A stretch of DNA of 21,611 nt from a virus. Position 1 is the first letter of the stretch. Every line of letters starts with the position of its first letter. The stretch lies in the IMG/VR virus record IMGVR_UViG_3300032282_001515, positions 1 to 21,611 of that record; one strand, 5' to 3'. Below the pieces are notes generated by a model. That model saw only the letters and a list, made by a program, of their open reading frames with translations, was not told the DNA's origin and made no database searches. The translations under genes and the position numbers were made by a program. Positions 1 to 18,614 of this stretch are shown here, in pieces.

Positions 1-296
1 ATGAAGTATTTCACGCCAACCTTCTTCGCCAGATCAAAACAGGCGTTTCGCGCATAAATTACCGCCCTCCGATCTTGAAAATTGTCACCCTCGTCAAACG
101 TCTCAGCAATCTTCGATTTCTCGAACATCAAGACCTTATCCTTGTACAGGCGCCGGTAGGTTTCGGCCTGTTTATCCTCGTCATCGATGACGATATAAAA
201 TCGCCCGGTGTATTTGAACTCGTCCAGCATCCTGATCGTCGGGATGTTATCCGGCCTCCCGTGCGAGAGGATAAAAACACAGAAATCGTTTCTCAT
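1..296 (-). CDS. TET-associated-type glycosyltransferase, N-terminal part (runs off the window)
   Basis: The 98 visible residues start MRNDFCVFILSHGRPDN and contain YIVIDDEDK near residue 35 and ARNACFDLAKKVGVKYF at the cut end. The order HGRPDN, VIDDED, GDNFQDRR, ARNA is the N-terminal pattern I know from phage TET-associated glycosyltransferases (GT-A fold). These are thought to transfer sugar to hydroxymethylated pyrimidines in phage DNA. The D-x-D type metal motif expected just after VKYF lies outside the window, so activity cannot be judged. The ATG overlaps the stop of the ParB-domain gene by 4 bases (ATGA), with GAGG eight bases upstream, so the two genes are probably translationally coupled. 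The family call is from memory of motifs; a different small GT-A enzyme is the alternative. Confidence 0.7.
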   Translation of the reverse strand, partial: MRNDFCVFILSHGRPDNIPTIRMLDEFKYTGRFYIVIDDEDKQAETYRRLYKDKVLMFEKSKIAETFDEGDNFQDRRAVIYARNACFDLAKKVGVKYF

Positions 297-1123
297 GATT
301 CAGCCTCGGCCTGCGAGACATGAAACTCGGTTTGAGCAGCAAGGTCGCCCATTCGTTTGGTTAGCCTTACAAACCCGTTTTCAATCGCCTTGTCGAAGTC
401 GATAATCACCAAGGCAGATCGCTCCATCAGTCGTTGGATAGGAGCATCGGACGATGCGTAGAAGTCGGCAATCCTTCGAAAGTCGAAAACCGTGTGACGC
501 TCCGCAGCCTTCTCTAGGAACACCGCAATATCGTCTGGCAACTTCGCCGCTCTGATTTCCTTGATTAGTCCGCTAGATTTCTCGTCATTGTACAGCTCGT
601 CTGGAGAGGGGCAATCGCCGCTAGGCTTGTAAATGGGAGCCTCGATCTTACGGCTATAAACCTCATCCTCACTTTCAACCGATCCAGCCGCTTCACTTTC
701 TCCCGTTAGCAAAGCGTTCAACGCAACGTCATCGAAACCCAGCAACCCCAGATCAAAGTCAGCATCCACCAGCTCGGCAATCTCAACCTTCAACATCTCC
801 GCATCCCAGCCAGCATTCAACGCCAACTGATTATCAGCAATCACATATGCCCGCTTCTGGGCCTCCGTCAGATGCCCTAGCTCGATGCAAGGAACATCCT
901 TCTCCCCAAGCTTGCGAGCCGCCATCACGCGCCCGTGGCCTGCAATAATCGTCCCATCCCCGTCAACCAGGATAGGATTGGTCCAGCCAAACTCTCGAAT
1001 AGACGCAGCAATCTGCGCAACCTGATCCTTGCTATGCGTCCGGCTGTTGCGGGCATAGGGGATCAGATCCTCAACCGACCTCCAGGTGATTTCATACTTC
1101 CCAGGCAGACCCTTCTTAACCAT
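293..1123 (-). CDS. ParB N-terminal domain protein with a distinct C-terminal region
   Basis: The product has 276 residues. Residues about 10-95 are a ParB/Srx-type domain: LIPYARNSRTHS, IREFGWTNPILVD, GTIIAGHGRVMAARKLG and the following VIADNQLAL helix region. In phages this domain is often fused to a DNA methylase, but no methylase motif follows here. Instead residues about 155-276 contain IYKPSGDCPSPDELY, ERHTVFDFRRIADFYA and SALVIIDFDKAIENGFVRL, a block I believe recurs in phage ParB proteins near base-modification genes but cannot name. An in-frame GTG at 1189 would add 22 residues encoded by homopolymer tracts. The ATG at 1123, with AAAGGA ten bases upstream, is the better start. The gene lies between a small terminase subunit and a glycosyltransferase. 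Its role may be DNA nicking, a switch in DNA modification, or packaging. Confidence 0.85.
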   Translation of the reverse strand: MVKKGLPGKYEITWRSVEDLIPYARNSRTHSKDQVAQIAASIREFGWTNPILVDGDGTIIAGHGRVMAARKLGEKDVPCIELGHLTEAQKRAYVIADNQLALNAGWDAEMLKVEIAELVDADFDLGLLGFDDVALNALLTGESEAAGSVESEDEVYSRKIEAPIYKPSGDCPSPDELYNDEKSSGLIKEIRAAKLPDDIAVFLEKAAERHTVFDFRRIADFYASSDAPIQRLMERSALVIIDFDKAIENGFVRLTKRMGDLAAQTEFHVSQAEAES

Positions 1124-1202
1124 GAAAACCATTTCCTTTTTTTTTGGAAGACCAGTCGAACAAGGCAACCGGGGGGGAGGGGGGTCCACCTCTGCTTGCC
1201 TG

Positions 1203-6866: not shown

Positions 6867-7075
6867 TCCTCTACCTCCTTGCTCATTACAGGATCTGGGA
6901 TTTCCATTGCATTGCGCTTGCGGCGATCCGTTGGGATCTTGTCTGCCTGCCACTCGCCGCACCACTGGGTTCTTGCAACCCGTGTTGATGTTGGGTATCG
7001 CAGGCAGGTCAACGATCCACCTGTTTTTTCTTTGGTGAACTTGCAGGTAAGGCAGGTATCTGTTGCACGTTCCAT
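6863..7075 (-). CDS. Small Cys-rich, possibly zinc-binding protein
   Basis: The 70-residue product has CLTCKF at residues 8-13, SLTCLRYP at 21-28 and QWCGEWQ at 37-43. The CxxC followed by two spaced Cys suggests a four-Cys metal site of the small phage zinc-finger kind. The C-terminal third is charged and probably disordered. I know no named function. The ATG at 7075 shares one base with the GapR stop (TAATG), so translation is likely coupled, and the 3' end overlaps the XRE gene by four bases. Confidence 0.75.
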   Translation of the reverse strand: MERATDTCLTCKFTKEKTGGSLTCLRYPTSTRVARTQWCGEWQADKIPTDRRKRNAMEIPDPVMSKEVEE

Positions 7076-7356
7076 TAGTCGCTCTCTTTCGGTAGGTTGC
7101 TCTGAATTACCATCTCGATCGGTGTCATCCCGATTTCGTGCATGTACGCTGCAAGGATGGCGCTTTCCTCCTTGCGCTTGGTGTCGTCCATCTTCCGCAT
7201 TGCAATGATCTTGCGGATGATTTTCACGTCATAGCCATTGCTTTTGGCTTCGGTGTAGATGTCTTTCACATCTGTCTTCAACAGGCTGATTTCATCTTCC
7301 TGCTTTTCGATGCGCTCAACAATGCGCGCCAGTTGGTTGTTTTTCAGATCCGACAT
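7075..7356 (-). CDS. gapR: GapR-family (DUF2312) DNA-binding protein
   Basis: The 93-residue product matches GapR/DUF2312: NQLARIVERIEKQEDEISLL, then DIYTEAKSNGYDVKIIRKII, then AMRKMDD and ILAAYMHEIGMTP. In Caulobacter GapR is a nucleoid-associated protein that clamps overtwisted DNA ahead of forks and stimulates topoisomerases. The family is centred on Alphaproteobacteria and their phages, hence the host inference. A phage copy could support fast fork movement on phage DNA or displace host GapR. A GAGGT about seven to nine bases before the ATG supports the start. The C-terminus (MVIQSNLPKESD) is longer than I remember for the short family members. It lies four bases downstream of the DUF6378 gene. 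Confidence 0.9.
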   Translation of the reverse strand: MSDLKNNQLARIVERIEKQEDEISLLKTDVKDIYTEAKSNGYDVKIIRKIIAMRKMDDTKRKEESAILAAYMHEIGMTPIEMVIQSNLPKESD

Positions 7357-9236: not shown

Positions 9237-10961
9237 TTACTGATTCATCTCGTCTTCCTTGGATCCGCGAATTGCCTGCCCTCCAAGAAGCCCTGTTACC
9301 TCTCGGCTATAAGGCTGGGCATACCAGGCACGGGATGCAAGATAAGGCAGACCAAGAGCAGTGATAGGCTCTAGAGCAGCAACTCCAAGCCCCTGCGCCG
9401 TACCAGCCGCAGCCGCAGCCGGAGCGCCACGTTTGCCGCCTGTCAGCAGGTCTTGATAGAATGACCGCTGCGCTGTTCCTGAGTTTGGCACGGGATCAGG
9501 GATAATCGCTGCACCAGCCCTTACAAGATTGGTGAAGTCATCCTGTCCCTCAACCCATCGTGTTGGATCGCGGCCTCTAACAACAGATGCAATCTGCTGA
9601 GCAGGGATAAACCCTGTATTGAGTTTCTCATTTCCTGCCCGAGCCATTGCATCCTCAACCCGGCTGAAGATTGCATATCTCTGGTTTAGGTTCTGCCATG
9701 CTTGCCGCAACTCAGGTGATTCGGTCGAACGCTCCATAGCTCCAGCAAGTGATTGCTGAAGACCTTGCAACGCCTGCGTATAATAGCCAGACGATGGATC
9801 AGTTGAACGGGATGCCTTTGCAATCTCTTCTGACAGTTCACTTTGAAGCCGGTGATATGTCCGCCCTTCACCAGTGCGTTCTCCAGTTGCAAAGCGTAAG
9901 ACCTCATCGCGCCGTGCATTCCAAACAGGCTTAATCGTGTCTGGGAACCCGACAACGTAGTTGCTTTCAATGCGTCCAAGATCATTGAAAAGCTGCTCAT
10001 CACCTCTGATGTTAGTCTGACGCTCTAAGGCATTATATTCGCGCCCAAAGCTGCGACGTGCATTTGTAAGCACTTCAGGTGTGGCTATATCGCTCTCAAT
10101 TCCAGCACGGCGCAGGATAGAGCCAGTGAACGCTCTCTGCGTCAGATCCTCTTGCCTAGCAACCGCTGGTGCAGATGTTGGCAGATATTTCATCACACTC
10201 TCAACCATTTGAGGTGCCCCGGTCTCTAACTGTTGGGCCGGAGACAACGGTATTCCCTGCTGCTGCAAGACATTAATATTGGCCTGGCGCACCTCACCAG
10301 GAGCCGCAAACATGTTCTGCGGCCTAGCCATAAATGGTAGCGCCCCAGACGCGATTCCAAGCGGCAATGCAACAGCTTCAGGCGCACCCATCTCACGGGC
10401 TGTCTGTGCTGTTCCTGCGCTGATGGTTCCAGCCGCTGTCTGTGCTGCCGGTGCTTCAGCAAGCGTCTGCGCAATGCCTTGACCAACGGTCCTTGGTGTC
10501 AGCGAACGGGATAACAAGCCAGCGCCTCCAGCCCCTGTAAGAGCCTCTGCCCCAGACTTGATCGCACCTTGGACAACGCGCTCTGTTGACGTTTGAGGTT
10601 GAGGCAAACCGGCATATGTCATCAACTGTTCAAGCGCCTGTGAAGGCAATGGACCTTGCTGTGCATTGGATGGTGAGACAAGGTTTTTCAATCCACGATA
10701 ACCGCTCACGGCAAGATCAGACAATGGGCCAGCAAGTGCCGCAGATGTAGCGCCAGCAACAAACCCAGGGATAGCGCCAACGCCCATCATAGGAGCGCCA
10801 GCAGCAGCCCCAAGAGCACCGCCAGCCATGATAGGACCAAGAGAGCGCGCAGTTAGCCCAGCCTGCCTTTGCAGGTCTCCCATGATCGAGCGTTCCATGC
10901 CCTGCCCAATCTTCTCGCGCTCTTTTGCGATTAGGGCATCAAGATCAATTTTGTCAGCCAT
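9237..10961 (-). CDS. Putative internal virion / DNA-ejection protein (574 residues)
   Basis: This large Ala/Gly/Gln-rich protein has an N-terminal amphipathic start (KIDLDALIAKEREKIGQGM), Gly/Ala-rich hydrophobic stretches at about residues 40-85 and 135-220, a helical middle (RRSFGREYNALERQTNIRG, QSELSEEIAKASRS) and a hydrophobic Ala-rich stretch near the C-terminus (GAPAAAAAGTAQGLGVAALE). Such membrane-active, low-complexity proteins between tail and replication genes are typical of ejection or pilot proteins of short-tailed phages, which leave the virion and span the cell envelope. I assign no named family. Start TAATG-coupled to the upstream gene, with AGGGGG about six to eight bases before the ATG. 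It is the last gene of the virion operon, followed by a terminator. Confidence 0.65.
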   Translation of the reverse strand: MADKIDLDALIAKEREKIGQGMERSIMGDLQRQAGLTARSLGPIMAGGALGAAAGAPMMGVGAIPGFVAGATSAALAGPLSDLAVSGYRGLKNLVSPSNAQQGPLPSQALEQLMTYAGLPQPQTSTERVVQGAIKSGAEALTGAGGAGLLSRSLTPRTVGQGIAQTLAEAPAAQTAAGTISAGTAQTAREMGAPEAVALPLGIASGALPFMARPQNMFAAPGEVRQANINVLQQQGIPLSPAQQLETGAPQMVESVMKYLPTSAPAVARQEDLTQRAFTGSILRRAGIESDIATPEVLTNARRSFGREYNALERQTNIRGDEQLFNDLGRIESNYVVGFPDTIKPVWNARRDEVLRFATGERTGEGRTYHRLQSELSEEIAKASRSTDPSSGYYTQALQGLQQSLAGAMERSTESPELRQAWQNLNQRYAIFSRVEDAMARAGNEKLNTGFIPAQQIASVVRGRDPTRWVEGQDDFTNLVRAGAAIIPDPVPNSGTAQRSFYQDLLTGGKRGAPAAAAAGTAQGLGVAALEPITALGLPYLASRAWYAQPYSREVTGLLGGQAIRGSKEDEMNQ

Positions 10962-12676
10962 TATCGCCCCCTATTGATTTGAGACATACGCGCCAGCAAT
11001 TCTGCCTTTTCACGCTCGCTCAGTTTTGTTGTGTCGAGCATATAGAGATCAGCAGCAGACATTGATTTGATCCGGTCAACCATTGCTGGTTCATATGGCT
11101 TAAATTCTAAGCCAGCTTTCTTAGCGCCAGGACCAGCGTTAACAATCATTGATTGCATAGCACTTTCTCTGGATCTGCGTTTTTGGTCAACCACGCGTGG
11201 ATCATCTGATGGCTGGGGAAAATACTTGATTATTTCGTTATTCATTTCTTCGCCGCCAATTGCAGCACCTGATTCTTGACGCAGATTTGCAGTCACCCAG
11301 TCGCGCTGAGCCTGCTTGTAACTCTGTCGCTCTGGGCTTTCTAAGTACCCCGCATATGGTCCAAGTTTTTGACCAATTGTTGTTTCCCCAAACCCTGCTT
11401 TTGAAGCTGCCGTTGGATCAAGTGGATCAATGACTTTGGAGGCATTAATCATGCGTGAAGCAAAGCCAGTGGCTTTCCCTTGTGTTTCAGTGAGTGGCTT
11501 TTCTTCTACCGGCGGCCTTGCAATCACAACAGGCTTTGTCGTCCCAGGTGCAGGTGCTGTCTGAGGAATTGGCATCATAGGACCAGCAACAACAGCAGGT
11601 TGCCCCGCGACAGGCGGTGCCAGATACTGGTTGACCGCAGCCTGACTTGTCGGATCATAGCCAGGTTGGGCATATAAGGGCACATTAGTCGTTGCAGCCA
11701 TTGGAGCAGCAGCAGCAGGAGCCGCCACAGGAGCGGCAACAGGAGGCGCTGCGGCAGGTGCAGCAGCAGCAGGCATTGGCGGAACATTTATCGGCTTTGG
11801 CTCAAGCACACCTTGCGGCAATGGGGGCGATACCCACTGGTATTCCATCTGCTTTGTTTCAGGGTTAAATCCCTGAACCATTTTTGGTCCATAAAGATTG
11901 TTATATGCCTGCACATACTCAGGCGTTGATGCCAAAGCAGGATTGCGCTGTGCTGTAATAATCATAGCCCTATCACGCTCTTCCAAACCTCCTTGAGGCT
12001 TTTGAAGCAGCGATTGCATTGCAAGAGATGGGTTTGCCTCAACCACATCTTTAATTGACTTTGGAACATCAGGGTTATCTTTGACGCTCTTTGCAAACTG
12101 TTCAACAGCAAGACGTGTCCGTTCAGCTTCAGACTCGTTACGCCTCATTTCCTGGATCTTCAGGAGATTTGACTCTTGCCCATACGGATTTGCTGCACGT
12201 TGAGCCACAATCTGCTGATTGATACCCATCAACTGCGATCCAGCAATGCCACTTGGATCGTAGCCAAAACGTGCCTTGTAAGCCTCTGGGTCTTTTGCCA
12301 GTTCGCTAAGTTGCTTCTGACTCTCAAGCATTTGTTGCTTTTCAGCCATCTGCTGACGCATCAAATTTCCCTGAACAATGTTGTAAGCTTGCGTCTGCAT
12401 GTTTGAGCCAACACTGCCCAACTGCCCCAGCTTCTCAGCCCTCTGCGCACCCGTCTGCCTCTGCCCCGCAGCCAGCAGCGTCGATCCAAGCTGCCCAAGC
12501 ATCGACAACCCAAGACGTCGCTGGTCTTCGGGAGATAGCATTGCCATCATGTCCTGCTGCTGCCCGGCAGTCGGCGCAGCGCCGCCTCCCAACAACCCGC
12601 TCAAGCCGGACCAAACGTCGCTGCCAAACTTACCAGCGGAACCAAGAAGCCCACCACCGATTTCTTCATCAGCCAT
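10961..12676 (-). CDS. Putative internal virion / structural protein with Pro-Ala linker (571 residues)
   Basis: The N-terminus is Gly-rich (EEIGGGLLGSAGKF), followed by Gln/Met-rich helices. Residues about 305-400 form a Pro/Ala/Val linker (PPMPAAAAPAAAPPVAAPVA). The C-terminal domain contains RDWVTANLRQESGAAIGGEE and YFPQPSDDPRVVDQKRRSRE, a block recurring in phage structural proteins (F...L.RESGAAI...E, then YFP..GD...V..K...R). It probably belongs to the same internal or ejection set as the next gene. The start is the ATG at 12676 with GGAGG about nine bases upstream, not the in-frame codon at 12691. The linker may let globular ends pass through a narrow channel (inference). Confidence 0.7.
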   Translation of the reverse strand: MADEEIGGGLLGSAGKFGSDVWSGLSGLLGGGAAPTAGQQQDMMAMLSPEDQRRLGLSMLGQLGSTLLAAGQRQTGAQRAEKLGQLGSVGSNMQTQAYNIVQGNLMRQQMAEKQQMLESQKQLSELAKDPEAYKARFGYDPSGIAGSQLMGINQQIVAQRAANPYGQESNLLKIQEMRRNESEAERTRLAVEQFAKSVKDNPDVPKSIKDVVEANPSLAMQSLLQKPQGGLEERDRAMIITAQRNPALASTPEYVQAYNNLYGPKMVQGFNPETKQMEYQWVSPPLPQGVLEPKPINVPPMPAAAAPAAAPPVAAPVAAPAAAAPMAATTNVPLYAQPGYDPTSQAAVNQYLAPPVAGQPAVVAGPMMPIPQTAPAPGTTKPVVIARPPVEEKPLTETQGKATGFASRMINASKVIDPLDPTAASKAGFGETTIGQKLGPYAGYLESPERQSYKQAQRDWVTANLRQESGAAIGGEEMNNEIIKYFPQPSDDPRVVDQKRRSRESAMQSMIVNAGPGAKKAGLEFKPYEPAMVDRIKSMSAADLYMLDTTKLSEREKAELLARMSQINRGR

Positions 12677-12701
12677 TTTTACGGCCTCCAATTAAATGCT
12701 G

Positions 12702-13700
12702 TTACTGCCTGTCATTGTATGTGCTAATCTCGCCGCTTGTGGCAGGACTTGTAGTTGTAGAAGCAAGTGTTTTTCCTGCTGCCAAAGCAGTAGCCTCTTC
12801 AGGGGTTGTCACTCGCAGCCAGTCTGGAACAGTTGCACCACCGATATTGTATCTACCAAGTGCCTGAGCAATCTGAGGAAAGATTGAAGGTGTCGCGGCA
12901 GGATTAAATACAGGAAGCATGTTAGGAAGATTGGCCTGATACATCATTGAGTTGCGGAACATATCCTGAATTGAAGGTGCATACATTGCAGCAGTATAGC
13001 CAGCACTTGGTCCGGTGACATTTGGCCCAACAACTGTAGCACCAAACGGAACCTCACGAATGCCACTTTGATATCCTGCAAAACCAGATGGCATACCTGT
13101 ACTAGGAACGCTCGTCACTGCCCCTGATTTAATGAGTTTAGCACGTTCGGCAACCAGAGCCGGATTAGTCATAGATTTTCTGAACTCGGCTTCTATCGTT
13201 GCAAGATCCATCCCCTTGGCTGCCTCCCCAAGCCAATGCTCTAAACCAGCCTTATCAGCTGTGGATCCAATAATGTTTTTATAGAGATTTTCAATGTCTG
13301 CGGCAGTAACAGTTTGTTTGTTTCCAACGGTTGTTCCAGTGGTTGCTCCCAACAAGCCGCCAGTTGTCGCACCAGTTGTTGCACCAGTGGTTGCACCAGT
13401 TGTTGTACCCAACAAGCCGCCAGTTGTCGCACCAGTTGTTGCGGCTGAATTGTTTGCTGCGTTAGTAATGTTACTTAAAACATTAGCCCAAGTTGTCGGA
13501 TTAACAACCTTACTAGCGCCAGATTTAACAAGGTCAGATGCTTGCTGAACCAAAGCAGCATTTTGTCTTGCAGCTATAAACTCAGGCGTCATCGCTTCAG
13601 GGGTCATCCCCCTATTAAGCCACCAATTTACGCCTTCTTGCTCTCCAGTGCGTCCGATGATCGAATTGTAGAGCTGTTGGATTTCTTCTACTGTTGCCAT
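12702..13700 (-). CDS. Virion-associated protein with two DUF4214-like repeats
   Basis: The 332-residue product has two similar segments: VEEIQQLYNSIIGRTGEQEG (residues 4-23) with NWWLNRGMTPEAM, and AADIENLYKNIIGSTADKAG (about 133-152) with LEHWLGEAAKGMDLATIEAE. This I..LY...IGR....G...W spacing is that of DUF4214 domains, found in surface and phage structural proteins. Between them lies a Thr/Gly/Ala linker (GATTGGLLG units) encoded by a 60-base-period DNA repeat. The C-terminal half is Pro/Gly/Met-rich. Nothing catalytic is visible. GGGG eight bases before the ATG overlaps the end of the transglycosylase gene. A tail, internal or adhesion protein is likely. Confidence 0.7.
   Translation of the reverse strand: MATVEEIQQLYNSIIGRTGEQEGVNWWLNRGMTPEAMTPEFIAARQNAALVQQASDLVKSGASKVVNPTTWANVLSNITNAANNSAATTGATTGGLLGTTTGATTGATTGATTGGLLGATTGTTVGNKQTVTAADIENLYKNIIGSTADKAGLEHWLGEAAKGMDLATIEAEFRKSMTNPALVAERAKLIKSGAVTSVPSTGMPSGFAGYQSGIREVPFGATVVGPNVTGPSAGYTAAMYAPSIQDMFRNSMMYQANLPNMLPVFNPAATPSIFPQIAQALGRYNIGGATVPDWLRVTTPEEATALAAGKTLASTTTSPATSGEISTYNDRQ
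13336..13440. repeat. 60-base-period direct repeat inside the DUF4214-like gene
   Basis: A 33-base stretch at 13348-13380 recurs exactly at 13408-13440, and shorter 12-base GCACCAGTTGTT-like units fill the space between. In frame it encodes repeated GATTGGLLG/GATTGATTG linker units, so copy-number change alters linker length without a frameshift. Confidence 0.85.
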
Positions 13701-13705
13701 GATAG

Positions 13706-14557
13706 TTACCCCATGTATCCGAATAAGCCTGCAAACAGGTCATCTTTCACTTTTGGACGATGCGACACACCAGACAGCATCGGTGCTGCTTTAGGCGCAC
13801 CAGCCGCCATCAAGGAATTTCCTAGCGATGACAATCCTGCCAAATCCTTCATCGTAGCTGGTGTCATTCCAGCAGGTTCAAACCGCTTATCTCCACCAAC
13901 AACTGAAGCCAGTATATCAGGCATTCTCTGTCCTGGCATCGGAGTTGCCGGTGGTGGCTGCGGTGATCCGCCGCCAAGAAGCCCGGTGATCGGACTGGCA
14001 AGGAAGCTCAATCCGCCATTGAGGTATTTTTGATCTAGATCACCAATCATGCCCATTGGAGCCTGCCAAGGTGGCGTTACTCCGGTAGGTGGCGCATCAG
14101 CCTGACCACCGCCGTCAAACTTTGACATAATCTTGTTGGCAAACTCATAGCCGGTCATTTCTGGATTGCCAGCATTCCAAACAACCGCGTTCTTTCCAAC
14201 TAGATCAGCAGCCTTCTTATCCGTTCCAGAAAGCAGCTTGCTTGCTCCACCCGCACCCTGCTGGTGCGCAAGATAAAGTTGCGATGCTGTTGGGTCTTCA
14301 ATGCCAGCCTTCTGCAAGGCGGCTCGATTGTCTGCCGCAAGCCTAGCCGCGGCTTCAGCAGACTGCGTAAGATCGTATGGGTCTTTCAAACCATACTGTT
14401 TTGCCGTGCTTGGGATAAACTGAAATCCACCAGCGGCCTTGGATAGCGGATTATATAGGTTTGCGCCGCTTCCGCTTTCAATCTGATATATTCTAGCCAG
14501 AAAGCCAGCAGGCAGTTTGTATTTCTGCTCTAGCTCCAAAAACAGATCATTTGCCAT
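13706..14557 (-). CDS. SLT-type lytic transglycosylase
   Basis: The 283-residue product begins with the domain itself: LEQKYKLPAGFLARIYQIES with catalytic Glu28 in the QIESG motif, AAGGFQFIPSTAKQYGL (goose-lysozyme-like GxxQxxP pattern), then ASQLYLAHQQGAGGASKLL. It cuts the glycan strand of peptidoglycan. Its place among internal virion genes and the long Pro/Gly tail (about 160-283, with PPTGVTPPWQAPMG and PQPPPATPMPGQRMP) suggest a virion-carried enzyme opening the wall during DNA entry rather than the lysis enzyme. The reading frame stays open to 15019, but that extension lies over the PAPS-reductase gene. The ATG at 14557, with GAGGGTG upstream, fits the domain start. It overlaps the upstream gene by 11 bases. 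Confidence 0.85.
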   Translation of the reverse strand: MANDLFLELEQKYKLPAGFLARIYQIESGSGANLYNPLSKAAGGFQFIPSTAKQYGLKDPYDLTQSAEAAARLAADNRAALQKAGIEDPTASQLYLAHQQGAGGASKLLSGTDKKAADLVGKNAVVWNAGNPEMTGYEFANKIMSKFDGGGQADAPPTGVTPPWQAPMGMIGDLDQKYLNGGLSFLASPITGLLGGGSPQPPPATPMPGQRMPDILASVVGGDKRFEPAGMTPATMKDLAGLSSLGNSLMAAGAPKAAPMLSGVSHRPKVKDDLFAGLFGYMG

Positions 14558-15239
14558 ATTGCACCCTCTGACTTTCAATCGCATCGTCAATGATCGCCAG
14601 TCGGCGCAGCATTTCAGTGCGCTTGGCATCCGGTAGATTGTCGATGCGCTTGCGGTTGTCGTCCAGGAAGCCAGTGCAATCCCAGCAATCACGGCCAGTC
14701 TTTTCGCCCAAACCATAGCCAGGTGACATGTCTGCCCCAACTTCAGCCAGATAGTTGAATATCTGCTTTTCCGTCCAGTTTTCGACCGGCATGATGTATT
14801 TGATGCCGTCGATGACCTGACCATTTTTCGATGTGGATTTGCGGCGGTCATCCAACCGCTGGCCCTTGATGATCTTTGTGACGCCCAAATCTTTGATGCC
14901 CTGATAGAGAGGTATCCAGATATTGATCGCGCAACACTCAAGGCACGATTGCATCGTTGGGCCTGTATTTCCGCTAATGACTTTACCAAGCGCCGTGTTC
15001 TCGACTGGTACAACGTCAACCGGCCATCCTCTTTCAGCGATATTGGCAGGCTGGTCTGACTTCAGATGAATGAAGTGCGGCAACCGCTTCGACCACCGCT
15101 CCATGTAATCAATCATCTCGGGATAGGATGCGCCTGTGTCCAGCCAAACAACATAAATGTCGTCCCACCTCTCCTTGTAGAGGTAGAGACAAGCCAAACT
15201 ATCCTTGCCGCCGCTGAACTGAAGCGCAGTGTCAATCAT
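14547..15239 (-). CDS. PAPS/APS-reductase-family PP-loop protein with a likely Fe-S site
   Basis: The 230-residue product has the PP-loop SGGKDS (residues 9-14), IYVVWLDTG, SCLECCAINIW (98-108), GQRLDDRRKS (126-135), PVENWTEKQIFNYL (151-164) and CWDC (185-188). The PP-loop family activates substrates with ATP, as in phosphoadenosine phosphosulfate reductase, DndC and tRNA thiolation enzymes. Cys102-Cys103 and Cys185-xx-Cys188 reproduce the CC...CxxC spacing of [4Fe-4S] APS reductases. The C-terminal catalytic Cys of true reductases is absent (it ends RVQYGK), so sulfur transfer or nucleic-acid modification is as likely as sulfate reduction. It is ATGA-coupled to a structural gene and lies within the virion operon, unusual for a metabolic gene. 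Confidence 0.85.
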   Translation of the reverse strand: MIDTALQFSGGKDSLACLYLYKERWDDIYVVWLDTGASYPEMIDYMERWSKRLPHFIHLKSDQPANIAERGWPVDVVPVENTALGKVISGNTGPTMQSCLECCAINIWIPLYQGIKDLGVTKIIKGQRLDDRRKSTSKNGQVIDGIKYIMPVENWTEKQIFNYLAEVGADMSPGYGLGEKTGRDCWDCTGFLDDNRKRIDNLPDAKRTEMLRRLAIIDDAIESQRVQYGK

Positions 15240-16165
15240 AGAGACGCCAATGTTCCAAGGATAGAAACGGCAGACGAGGCAGCGCCAAGACCAGTTAATA
15301 GTCCAGAACCGCTTCCACCACCACCACTCTGCGTCTGAGTTGCGCCGTATGGCGTAGCGCCCAAAGCCTGCAATGGAATTTGAAGTTGCTGAAGTGGGAA
15401 TTGTTGCTTTTCAGCATATGCTTGCCGTGCTGAATCCAATTGAGCTTGCTGCTGCTGTTGAATAAGAGACTGTGCACTAAGAGCACCTGTCGCACCTGTT
15501 AGGAATGCTTCCTGACCAGCGCCAGCAAGATTGCCAAGTGTTGAAGCGCCTTGCAAACCAAGTTGAGAACCTGTCAATCCAGCAGCCTGGTTAAGCTGCT
15601 GAGCTTGCAAGTTGCGAGCAATATCTCCCTGCGCTGCCGCCTGCGCTTGCTGGTAGTTCTGTCCATATAGGTTTGCCGCCAATTGCCCAGCCTGCTGCTG
15701 CGCTGCTGAATTGATGACACCTTCTTGAATGCCCTGACGCGATCCACCAAAGGCCTTAGCCTTTATGGCGTCAGCATAGGTTTGATTTAGCCCAGTTTGA
15801 CGCTGCGCATTGAGCGTTTCCAAAGAAGCGTCAATGACGTTTTTTGTATATGGATTCATGTATGGGCTAAGATCAGCATTAGCAATATAACCAGGGCTGA
15901 CCTGCTGTGGCTGATAGCTGCCAGACTGCGCTGCCATCATCTGCGCCTGTGCAAATGCAGGTTGAGCCATTGCATAGTTATTGGAGATTGCTCCAATTGC
16001 GCTCAACTGCCCAGGAGCCATATCAGCAACGCGCTGGCCCTCATATGGTCCAAGCATCGTATTGGAAATGTCGTAAGCAGCAGCAAGGTTTTTGCGGCCA
16101 GCCTCCTGAACCCACTCTGGGTATTCGGTTTTGTTTACCGTTGTTCCGCCGCCACCACCGTCCAT
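15236..16165 (-). CDS. Gln/Ala-rich phage structural protein (309 residues)
   Basis: The product starts with a Gly run (MDGGGGGTTVNKTEYPEWVQ), has the segment DLSPYMNPYTKNVIDASLE at about 98-116 and AKAFGGSRQGIQEGV at about 134-148, then long Gln/Ala helices and a Gly/Ser-rich hydrophobic end. The YMNPY...VID...L...AFGGSR...E pattern is common in tailed-phage virion proteins lying between nozzle-like and ejection genes; I know no defined function. It is probably an internal or tail-associated component. AGGAGG five to six bases before the ATG gives a strong start. The stop overlaps the PAPS-reductase-like start. Confidence 0.75.
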   Translation of the reverse strand: MDGGGGGTTVNKTEYPEWVQEAGRKNLAAAYDISNTMLGPYEGQRVADMAPGQLSAIGAISNNYAMAQPAFAQAQMMAAQSGSYQPQQVSPGYIANADLSPYMNPYTKNVIDASLETLNAQRQTGLNQTYADAIKAKAFGGSRQGIQEGVINSAAQQQAGQLAANLYGQNYQQAQAAAQGDIARNLQAQQLNQAAGLTGSQLGLQGASTLGNLAGAGQEAFLTGATGALSAQSLIQQQQQAQLDSARQAYAEKQQFPLQQLQIPLQALGATPYGATQTQSGGGGSGSGLLTGLGAASSAVSILGTLASL

Positions 16166-16174
16166 CTGGACCTC

Positions 16175-16525
16175 CTAAATATCCAAAGTGTGAACAACCC
16201 AGCGTTTCTTCCAGCCTGGCGTTGCGACCTTTTCCCAGCCTAGTCTACCCGATCCCATGATAAATTCACAGCCGTTCGCCCGTCCAAATTCTATCAGTCT
16301 TGGCTGCATGTTCTTAAGCGTCTCAAGTTCACCGGCAACCAGGACAATGTTCAGATGTCGTTTTTGCGGTGCAACCCGAATTTCTGTAACCACAACACCG
16401 TCATCATCCGCAAACATCTGAAATGCTCCAGACTCCAGCTTCGCAACCATGTCATCGTAAGTGTGGGTGTCCAAGCCATATTTCAGCGCCTTCTTGATCC
16501 GCTTGACCAGTTTTGCCTTATCCAT
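16175..16525 (-). CDS. Small conserved phage protein with a GRLGW motif (116 residues)
   Basis: The protein has a basic helical start (DKAKLVKRIKKALKYGL), a beta-rich centre (FADDDGVVVTEIRVAPQKRH, LNIVLVAGELETLKNM) and an end with CEFIMGSGRLGWEKVATPGW. A GR.GW...P.W end after a mixed alpha/beta core is shared by small phage proteins encoded near tail or connector genes and is faintly like GNAT acetyltransferases; catalysis cannot be claimed. The ATG at 16525 forms a TGATG junction with the upstream stop; a TTG one codon earlier is less likely. Confidence 0.7.
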   Translation of the reverse strand: MDKAKLVKRIKKALKYGLDTHTYDDMVAKLESGAFQMFADDDGVVVTEIRVAPQKRHLNIVLVAGELETLKNMQPRLIEFGRANGCEFIMGSGRLGWEKVATPGWKKRWVVHTLDI

Positions 16526-16755
16526 CAATAATTCGGTGCCCCAGTTTGACCCAAGGCAACAGATGTCGTCTGGAGAACGCCATCATCACCAACACTAACT
16601 TTCCAAACACTACCATCTGAAGCCAAAAGCAAAATGCTTTCAATTGCCTCATTTCGTGTCACATTTAACGATTGAGCTTTGTCGATCGCACTGAACGAAT
16701 AGCGGAAATATTCACGATCATAGCCGCTCGGTGGTGTTGGAAGGTTCAGTCTCAT
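16525..16755 (-). CDS. Small phage protein between nozzle and structural genes (76 residues)
   Basis: The product starts MRLNLPTPPSGYDREYFRY, has an AIDKAQSLNVTRNEAIESIL segment, and ends with a beta hairpin-like LLASDGSVWKVSVGDDGVLQ. The LP.PP..YD..Y......I..A pattern is frequent in small phage proteins at this position, and I suspect a head-tail or tail-assembly role. It overlaps the nozzle gene by four bases (ATGA), with GGTGGA just upstream of its ATG, so it is made by coupled translation. Confidence 0.7.
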   Translation of the reverse strand: MRLNLPTPPSGYDREYFRYSFSAIDKAQSLNVTRNEAIESILLLASDGSVWKVSVGDDGVLQTTSVALGQTGAPNY

Positions 16756-18614
16756 CGTCCACCCCCAGCTGTCATATCAAGGCGCACCTCACCGATGCTC
16801 CATTCTGCATCTTCAGTTGCCGCAACCTTAATCCTAAAATCACGGCCAGTCACGCGCATGTCAGTGTAGCCATCCGATCGCGGATTGTACGGACCAGATG
16901 TTGTTTCAGTTCCTTCTGGCGTAAAGGATGAAAACACCGTCAATTGAGTTGAGCTGTAGCCATAGCCACTGTCTGTGATTGCTTGCTTAACATGCGAAAT
17001 CATATTGCCGCCTTGAGCATTGATTGAGCCAGTTTCAGCATATCTAGCCGTTGTGATTGGATCGCCAGCAGCCGTCCAACCATCTTCGTGCTGGTAGAGA
17101 TTACCTTCCTCATCAGAAGCCAATGGATGTTGAATTACGGTTGTCCCACAAGCTGCGGTGCGAGCCATTTCTCCAATGCTCCACCAGTTTTCGGCATAAG
17201 AGAACATCAGATATTTATCTGGATTGGTTGATCCATTTGACGGATACCAAAACCAAGCTTCTGGAAAGACGCCATTATCTGAGCCAAAAGTCCAAAGATG
17301 TGATGTTTGTGGATCAAGATCATCAAACACAAATGAACCAACATCACATGGCAATGGACGTACAGTTCCTCCATCGTAAAGCCAGAATGATTCATTGCCC
17401 ATCCAAATACAACGTCCAGCAGTTGTTGCAAAAGCTTGCGGAGCAATTAATCCGCAGCCAAATCCAATGCGCTCTATCTGATAGATATATGGCAAACCAA
17501 CATAGCGCATGATCCATGCTTCATTGCTAGTCCAGATTAGAGTGCCTTCACGCACTGGAGCGCACATAACAATCTGACTTTGCGTATCCAGATCAAGGTA
17601 TCCAGCCGTGTTAGCAGGATTAGCAAAATCCCAATTTGTGTAGTCTTCAGAAGATGACCAGGCTACCCGCCTTTTATTGCCTCCAGCCCCAATCAAAACG
17701 CAATGACGCTCTGGCGTAACAATAACACCGCGATTGTCTGACGGCACTGAATTTGATGTTGTTACCGATCCGCCAGTACCAATAGCAGTTATTCCAGATG
17801 CGACTCCAGTGGCAATACCTCTGCCAGATGCAGATCCAACCAAAGATGCGGTTAGAGTAGTGGCGCTAAATGCCACGATTGTTGACCGGCCAGCAGCAGA
17901 TGCAATGCTAGATAACGTGGATGGAGTGGCAAAAGTAAATGTTGTGTCGTTGATAACAGAAAGAATTGTCCATGTTGCATTGAATGCAGAAAAGCTGTTT
18001 CCACTAATAACAACAGACTGACCAACAGTAAACCCATGATGGTCAACAGTTACTGCTGTTGCGACATTTGCATTTCTTGAGATGGTCACAATGGTGCTGG
18101 TTCCAACTGGACCAGCAATCACTTCATCATGGTTCCAATGAAGCAACCGGCCATCTGATGATGCAACAGCCAAAAGATCGCCACCCCAGTTATCAAACGT
18201 CCATGAAAATGTTGGCGTAAATGCCTGTGTGGGCGGGCGTGGATATGTTGGATCTGTATCAAGGCCATAATATGTGTAGCCATAGTTGTAGGCTCCAAAT
18301 CCTCCATATACTCCAGCGTCAGGTGTAACAAATGAAGGAGGTGTTACGTCCGTATAAGTTGAGCTATTAAGGATGTAGAGTTTGTCTTCACATCCAACTG
18401 CTGTATAGGACGCACCATCTGCTCCATTCCAAGGAAATATCCCACGGATTGTGCTGCTAAGAGGTGTCGATGTAACACGCTGCCATCCTCCAACAGGCAA
18501 CAGTTTTCCAGATCGCCAACGGATAAGGTTAGCATCCCAATACCTACCCTTTGTCTGAAGAGGCGTTGCCAGCTTCATGACACCAGGAGGAACATTGATC
18601 GGAGCAAGAGGCAT
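16752..18614 (-). CDS. P22 gp10-like tail nozzle / stabilisation protein candidate (620 residues)
   Basis: The N-terminus, INVPPGVMKLATPLQTKGRY followed by WDANLIRWRSGKLLPVGGW, and repeated blade-like segments (LLAVASSDGRLLHWN, LIGAGGNKRRVAWSSSEDY, LIWTSNEAWIMRYVG, CIWMGNESFWLYDGG, DKYLMFSYAENWWSIG, GNLYQHEDGW) match the beta-propeller stabilisation/nozzle family exemplified by P22 gp10. These form the end of a short tail tube and hold in DNA. Residues about 170-290 look like an insertion: a beta domain (VTISRNANVATAVTVDHHGF, TVGQSVVISGNSF, TWTILSVINDTTFTFA) plus Ser/Gly/Ala-rich sequence. GGAG before the ATG and a one-base TAATG junction support the start. A siphovirus tail protein with the same fold is the alternative. 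Confidence 0.65.
   Translation of the reverse strand: MPLAPINVPPGVMKLATPLQTKGRYWDANLIRWRSGKLLPVGGWQRVTSTPLSSTIRGIFPWNGADGASYTAVGCEDKLYILNSSTYTDVTPPSFVTPDAGVYGGFGAYNYGYTYYGLDTDPTYPRPPTQAFTPTFSWTFDNWGGDLLAVASSDGRLLHWNHDEVIAGPVGTSTIVTISRNANVATAVTVDHHGFTVGQSVVISGNSFSAFNATWTILSVINDTTFTFATPSTLSSIASAAGRSTIVAFSATTLTASLVGSASGRGIATGVASGITAIGTGGSVTTSNSVPSDNRGVIVTPERHCVLIGAGGNKRRVAWSSSEDYTNWDFANPANTAGYLDLDTQSQIVMCAPVREGTLIWTSNEAWIMRYVGLPYIYQIERIGFGCGLIAPQAFATTAGRCIWMGNESFWLYDGGTVRPLPCDVGSFVFDDLDPQTSHLWTFGSDNGVFPEAWFWYPSNGSTNPDKYLMFSYAENWWSIGEMARTAACGTTVIQHPLASDEEGNLYQHEDGWTAAGDPITTARYAETGSINAQGGNMISHVKQAITDSGYGYSSTQLTVFSSFTPEGTETTSGPYNPRSDGYTDMRVTGRDFRIKVAATEDAEWSIGEVRLDMTAGGGR

Follow-up and report, generated by a model that had tools for sequence, protein, structure and literature searches.

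A phage-specific PAPS-reductase-like protein with a conserved four-cysteine site encoded among DNA ejection genes

The stretch of viral DNA analysed here (the window; 21,611 nucleotides, positions 1 to 21,611 of IMG/VR record IMGVR_UViG_3300032282_001515) encodes a PAPS-reductase-like protein of 230 amino acids that is very probably not an APS or PAPS reductase. Judged by its sequence, the best explanation, offered tentatively, is a phage-specific, single-domain N-type ATP-pyrophosphatase with the PAPS-reductase fold and a four-cysteine [4Fe-4S] site, which would be made late, would not form part of the virion and would most likely thiolate an acceptor.

The gene is located on the minus strand at 14547 to 15239, where an earlier reading made from the sequence alone (the sequence-only reading) had correctly recognised a PAPS-reductase-family open reading frame without giving its strand. 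It lies within a series of virion genes, all on the minus strand. The upstream protein, termed U (15236 to 16165, 309 amino acids), matches the DNA ejection protein family phrog_4287 (E = 5e-17). The downstream gene (13706 to 14557) encodes an internal virion protein with an SLT lytic-transglycosylase domain (PF01464; phrog_22520, phrog_4067), followed in the same operon by a DUF4214 protein with a GATT/GGLL-rich repetitive stretch (12702 to 13700; PF13946), a putative ejection protein, module gene E1 (10961 to 12691), which many relatives also have on the downstream side of the PAPS-like gene, and a DNA ejection protein (9237 to 10961; phrog_26400, E = 5e-25). On the other side of U are a 117 amino acid protein (16175 to 16528) and a virion structural protein resembling the P22 gp10 stabilisation/closure protein (16752 to 18614; phrog_3287, E = 1e-82), a relative of which is annotated as a phage stabilization protein. 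The 117 amino acid protein has 30% identity by blastp (E = 1e-16) to p41 of vB_OspP_OH, annotated as an acetyltransferase; it has no Pfam match and its GNAT identity is one of annotation only. In Bcep22-like phages and others that bear the PAPS-like gene, the corresponding position is taken by a gene annotated as an acetyltransferase. Elsewhere in the window, a GapR-like DNA-binding protein is encoded at 7075 to 7356 (minus strand) and in a relative (L292:12525-12806; PF10073, E = 7e-24), and a stand-alone ParB-like domain protein (293 to 1189, minus strand) adjoins the small terminase. A further match of the latter is to the N-terminal portion of phrog_498 DNA methyltransferases, whose methyltransferase part it lacks. 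It was considered as a partner of the PAPS-like protein, after the manner of IbrA/IbrB, and rejected, as just 2 of the 29 phage records compared, related or control, contain a clear homologue.

The start of the PAPS-like gene overlaps the stop of U by 4 nt (ATGA) and its end overlaps the start of the transglycosylase gene by 11 nt. Promoter and terminator scans yielded sites no more numerous than in shuffled sequences; because of the gene overlaps, translational coupling, operon transcription and late expression are nevertheless probable. The tight coupling with structural genes from which late expression had been argued is supported by the placement of the gene in an ejection-protein operon in most relatives; late expression itself continues to be a likelihood deduced from gene order.

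The protein scored 60.7 bits against PF01507 (E = 2.4e-16; cut-off 22.5), which establishes superfamily membership, and matched PHROG 424 (E = 4e-20). Scores against the NCBIfam reductase models (CysH/APS/PAPS) were 36.0, 30.2, 28.0 and 26.1 bits, against cut-offs of 154, 165.1, 254.2 and 235.3 respectively, the last pair being that of TIGR02055. The best NCBIfam scores, though weak, were to the archaeal PRK08557, PRK08576 and PRK13795. An AlphaFold2 model built from the family's own alignment (pLDDT 92.3) has the PP-loop ATP-pyrophosphatase fold with a four-cysteine metal site. In the structural comparison proposed by the sequence-only reading, the best Foldseek matches were CysH and APS reductases (E = 1e-9 to 1e-7), with YcfA of Erwinia also matched (E about 1e-6). 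VIA-align Z scores were 15.1 for Candida PAPS reductase, 13.7 to 14.0 for APS reductases (13.3 to 15.1 for PAPS and APS reductases overall), 14.0 for both CysD and FAD synthase, and about 11 for LarE, TtuA and NcsA. The modelled fold fits several chemistries and cannot choose among them, nor can fold and motif together tell sulfur transfer from amidation or adenylylation.

Short peptide-pattern scans of IMG/VR gathered at least 313 relatives, and several of the counts given here are of sequences related to one another; a scan patterned on the phiA008 homologue yielded no matches. The window protein was aligned with 41 of its relatives (32 to 89% identity to it). The PP-loop SGGKDS (residues 9 to 14; 15198 to 15215) is intact, as had been claimed, with G11, D13 and S14 invariant and positions 9, 10 and 12 nearly so. 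Cysteines occur in the window protein at residues 17, 99, 102, 103, 185 and 188, among which Cys102-Cys103 (14931 to 14936) and the Cys185-x-x-Cys188 pair (14676 to 14687) are invariant in 42/42 sequences; no other cysteine is invariant, and positions 17, 99 and 120 are unconserved. Cys99, unmentioned in the sequence-only reading, might have completed a CxxC zinc pair, yet it is unconserved. The invariant cysteines align column for column with the [4Fe-4S] ligands of four APS reductases from one bacterial order, the Burkholderiales (L197-L200), the CxxC pair falling on CEPC or CAPC. The APS-reductase spacing noticed earlier is therefore borne out, and the four residues are predicted to form a [4Fe-4S] site, the identity of the metal being suggested by the ligand pattern.

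All of the reductase features examined have been lost. The catalytic cysteine tail ECGLH is present in neither the window protein nor its homologues, extending to the whole subfamily an absence first noticed in the single protein. The Burkholderiales enzymes have RAGRWWWE...KECGLH, of which the arginine-rich RAGRWWW region is likewise absent. Position 107, which corresponds to the lysine after CC, is I, L, V, F or Y in 42/42 sequences and never lysine. The lysine after CC and the arginines of RAGRWWW contact the sulfonucleotide in APS and PAPS reductases. The PP-loop resembles that of CysD and DndC in being of the ATP type, and replaces the SSLAAED or SSLGAED of APS reductases; SGGKDS binds ATP, whereas the altered loop of the reductases accommodates APS or PAPS. 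The suggestion that the protein does not serve sulfate assimilation is strengthened accordingly. Two observations named beforehand as counting against that suggestion did not occur: the cysteine set is kept by every homologue aligned, and none of the closest proteins is a genuine reductase.

An ATP-type PP-loop together with predicted Fe-S ligands is the combination found in the functional class of Fe-S PP-loop sulfurtransferases, and sulfur transfer by the PAPS-like protein is given a little less than an even chance. Made late alongside the virion proteins, the enzyme would remain outside the particle, to extrapolate from a relative, and would bind ATP in its intact PP-loop. The acceptor would most likely be adenylated on an oxygen, and the activated oxygen then exchanged for sulfur. 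The cluster may help to hold the enzyme together or to deliver sulfur from a host cysteine desulfurase or from sulfide, and a requirement of the fold or of the sulfur step may be why it has been kept. The host could supply IscS. Delivery by the cluster is not evident, since four conserved cysteines imply a fully ligated cluster; LarE, TtuA and NcsA have three cluster ligands, leaving one iron free for sulfide. Two further counterpoints are that no cysteine desulfurase was found in the 26 related phage records searched, and that the isoelectric point of the family, mostly 5 to 6, fits a large nucleic-acid substrate poorly. The acidic pI argues weakly against DNA and mildly for a small molecule or a protein as the substrate.

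The alternative that survives best, although it is unlikely, is an ATP-dependent enzyme, comparable to QueC/Cap9, FAD synthase or CysD, that adenylates or amidates and performs no sulfur chemistry; a carboxylate or phosphate would be activated and joined to an amine, an alcohol or a protein N-terminus, and the metal site would be only structural. That FAD synthase and CysD rank among the closest folds is in keeping with this, as are matches in PDB profile comparisons to Cap9 (E = 6e-5) and to CysD (E = 8e-5). Cap9 joins 7-deazaguanine to an N-terminal glycine and QatC has been proposed to act likewise (PMC13279940), and many of the adjacent U proteins begin MG(G/K/S). The glycine is, however, not common to U proteins: that of the window begins MDGG, in BcepIL02-like phages U is predicted to start at MLENAIW or farther upstream, and phages lacking the PAPS-like gene also have MG. 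A Cap9/QatC-type partner with a conserved N-terminal glycine was thus not found in the adjacent U of the window or of BcepIL02-like phages, and modification of such a glycine on U was rejected as unsupported. Moreover, the CC and CxxC motifs match the Fe-S site of APS reductases, unlike the zinc site of QueC-type enzymes.

A working but unusual APS or PAPS reductase, its catalytic cysteine coming from a second protein or from among the four conserved residues, is improbable. The cluster-ligand columns common to APS reductases, the best Foldseek matches and the interpretation of the JC1 and CSP3 authors, who read the gene as one of sulfate assimilation, all favour it, but it would have to accommodate the family-wide loss of the terminal cysteine, the sulfate-binding arginine region and the lysine after CC, as well as a PP-loop of the ATP type. 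No other cysteine is conserved that might take over the catalytic role, and we know of no reductase whose catalytic cysteine is supplied in such an arrangement. A literature search for an experimentally tested phage PAPS reductase turned up only a citation, according to which the phage 186 gene is non-essential.

Phylogenetic analysis of 61 catalytic domains grouped the phage and prophage copies in a single clade (99/92) that excludes APS reductase, CysD, DndC and the archaeal PUA-PAPS proteins, although some long rows (L022, L127 and L116) were placed with uncertainty. This topology bears on the idea of a DndC/SspD-like enzyme marking phage DNA with phosphorothioate, which has little probability. 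Membership of the same superfamily, the SGGKDS loop and an Fe-S site, predicted in the PAPS-like family, are common to both, the profile comparison with DndC gave a probability of 93.5% over 151 columns, and weak profile matches were obtained to SspD (E = 3.5e-5) and BrxP (E = 1.6e-4). DndC nevertheless forms a separate clade (100/100), has a single cysteine where the PAPS-like family has CC and an extra cysteine before its CxxC, and is about twice as long. The search for Dnd partners that had been suggested was negative: neither DndD nor a cysteine desulfurase was detected in any of 26 related phage records, several of which are fragments. A Pfam scan of ten early or unassigned genes of one relative of 37.8 kb recognised families of replication, recombination and packaging together with a single 2OG-Fe(II) oxygenase, and no nucleotide-modification gene.

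Archaeal relatives with SGGKDS, CC and CxxC carry an RNA-binding PUA domain in 2 of the 3 tested (E = 3e-13 and 4e-17) and ferredoxin domains in all three, a hint that the wider family may act on RNA. At several archaeal loci (L131, L132, L150 and others) PUA-PAPS-ferredoxin proteins of approximately 600 amino acids look like uncharacterised RNA-modifying enzymes. In a prophage of Limnohabitans sp. T6-5 (L120:7341-8687), a SAM-dependent methyltransferase domain (PF08241) is fused N-terminal to the PAPS-like domain; this fusion adjoins the same virion gene and is possibly a clue to a two-step modification. A copy in a Reyranella metagenome-assembled genome (L129:4851-5723) carries an N-terminal domain that could not be assigned and has a primase/helicase-like gene, not virion genes, next to it; its frame stops shortly past the CC motif, which may mean truncation or a broken frame.

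At viral loci the PAPS-like gene directly follows U wherever the contig extends to that point, two contigs (L010 and L085) beginning too late to tell. The same position is found in two types of podovirus, that of the window and that of Bcep22, between which no homology of the U, closure or downstream proteins was detected, in the case of U by profile comparison. A few prophage copies (L115 and L129) have DNA-metabolism genes as neighbours, and the association with virion genes, though strong, is not absolute. Mass spectrometry of JC1 virions identified gp64, gp67, gp68 and gp69, encoded nearby on both sides, with neither the PAPS-like gp65 nor gp63 on the list (PMC9144972). JC1 gp64 is the positional counterpart of the window U, sequence homology between U and this Bcep22-type protein being undetected. 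A protein missing from a mass-spectrometry list counts for little, and JC1 is only distantly related; the absence of gp65 nevertheless fits an enzyme that acts in the cell.

Ratios of dN/dS against close relatives were 0.04 to 0.13, and because of this strong purifying selection on the family the gene is not there by chance. A functionless passenger moron, kept in the virion operon only as a recombination cassette, is very improbable, for although not every relative has the gene (ctvy9321, vB_OspP_OH and MJing1 lack it among similar neighbours) and its presence changes five times on the U tree, at least four of these on well-supported branches, it is under that selection and in several relatives is better conserved than the surrounding genes (88% against 69, 54 and 37% in L005). 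Some U proteins bear an S74-like tail, a C-terminal endosialidase-chaperone extension; the comparison covered the window U (15236 to 16165) and loci L205-L283. Among 108 non-identical cases, 69 had the PAPS-like gene and no tail, 23 the tail and no gene, 16 neither and 0 both. The raw Fisher p of 2e-13 takes no account of kinship or of bias in the sampling, and the only four independent pairs give p = 0.125 to 0.5; the tail as an alternative to the gene was accordingly set aside as a pattern only, resting on four independent contrasts.

The family itself is already known, as PHROG 424 or as a 'PAPS reductase' or 'cysH' moron, and phage papers call the gene a sulfate-assimilation moron. What is new is the combination of a phage-only clade, an ATP-type PP-loop, retained cluster ligands, lost reductase residues and a fixed place among ejection genes, and the current name of this variant is probably wrong. 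It is possible, and put forward with a shade more reserve than sulfur transfer itself, that this large phage-only subfamily, which in viromes and phage genomes goes under the name of the sulfate-assimilation gene cysH, is an Fe-S, ATP-dependent modifying enzyme made with the DNA ejection proteins, whose thio- (or other) modification of phage or host nucleic acid, a nucleotide or a virion component would matter at the end of infection. Among the 'globally conserved' auxiliary metabolic genes of viruses, cysH is reported to be one of the most common, and it is interpreted as a sign that viruses control sulfur cycling (PMC9301287). Should the main phage subfamily be unable to reduce APS or PAPS, many such claims may depend on a name. 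When IMG/VR was scanned with a pattern modelled on Burkholderiales APS reductase, only two close matches emerged (L296 and L297, each at the end of a contig), compared with at least 313 PAPS-like relatives; the scan patterns differ, and the comparison of these numbers gives no more than a hint. Because the gene keeps its place among ejection genes, its real function can be tested directly in cultured relatives, JC1 for example.

Among known systems, Cap9 of type IV CBASS and QueC resemble the PAPS-like protein in the PP-loop fold and, for the profile, weakly, and differ in the QueC-type zinc site and in the conserved N-terminal glycine substrate, which was not found in the adjacent U. The [4Fe-4S] sulfurtransferases TtuA, NcsA and LarE, and YcfA of Erwinia, are alike in fold and proposed chemistry; they have extra domains and no close sequence match to it, and the number and placement of their cysteines differ. 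DndC, SspD and BrxP share the superfamily, the ATP-type PP-loop and Fe-S, while DndC is distinguished by the single cysteine of WCTERMKI with an SC...CxxC layout, frames of 382 to 541 amino acids, its partners and its clade. The archaeal proteins (PRK08557/PRK08576/PRK13795) have SGGKDS, CC and CxxC in one domain, and differ in size, in their PUA and ferredoxin domains and in their separate place in the tree. Assimilatory APS reductase (CysH of the [4Fe-4S] type; PDB 2goy, 7lhr) is similar in fold (Z = 13.7 to 14.0) and in its CC and CxxC columns, whereas the PAPS-like protein is without ECGLH, RAGRWWW and the lysine after CC, and has the ATP-type loop. The same subfamily, PHROG 424, includes the closest annotated phage relatives: the 'reductase' of ctyzp037, at 50% identity, and, at approximately 36%, the 'PAPS reductase' of the Burkholderia phages BcepIL02, BcepMigl, DC1, JC1 and CSP3, among them the Lessievirus products BcepIL02 gp67, JC1 gp65 and CSP3 orf41. 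The Lessievirus genes have Bcep22-type neighbours without detectable homology to those of the window, but occupy the same place after a virion gene; identity extends over nearly the whole length in BcepIL02, JC1 and ctyzp037, and all four cysteines are seen in BcepIL02 and ctyzp037.
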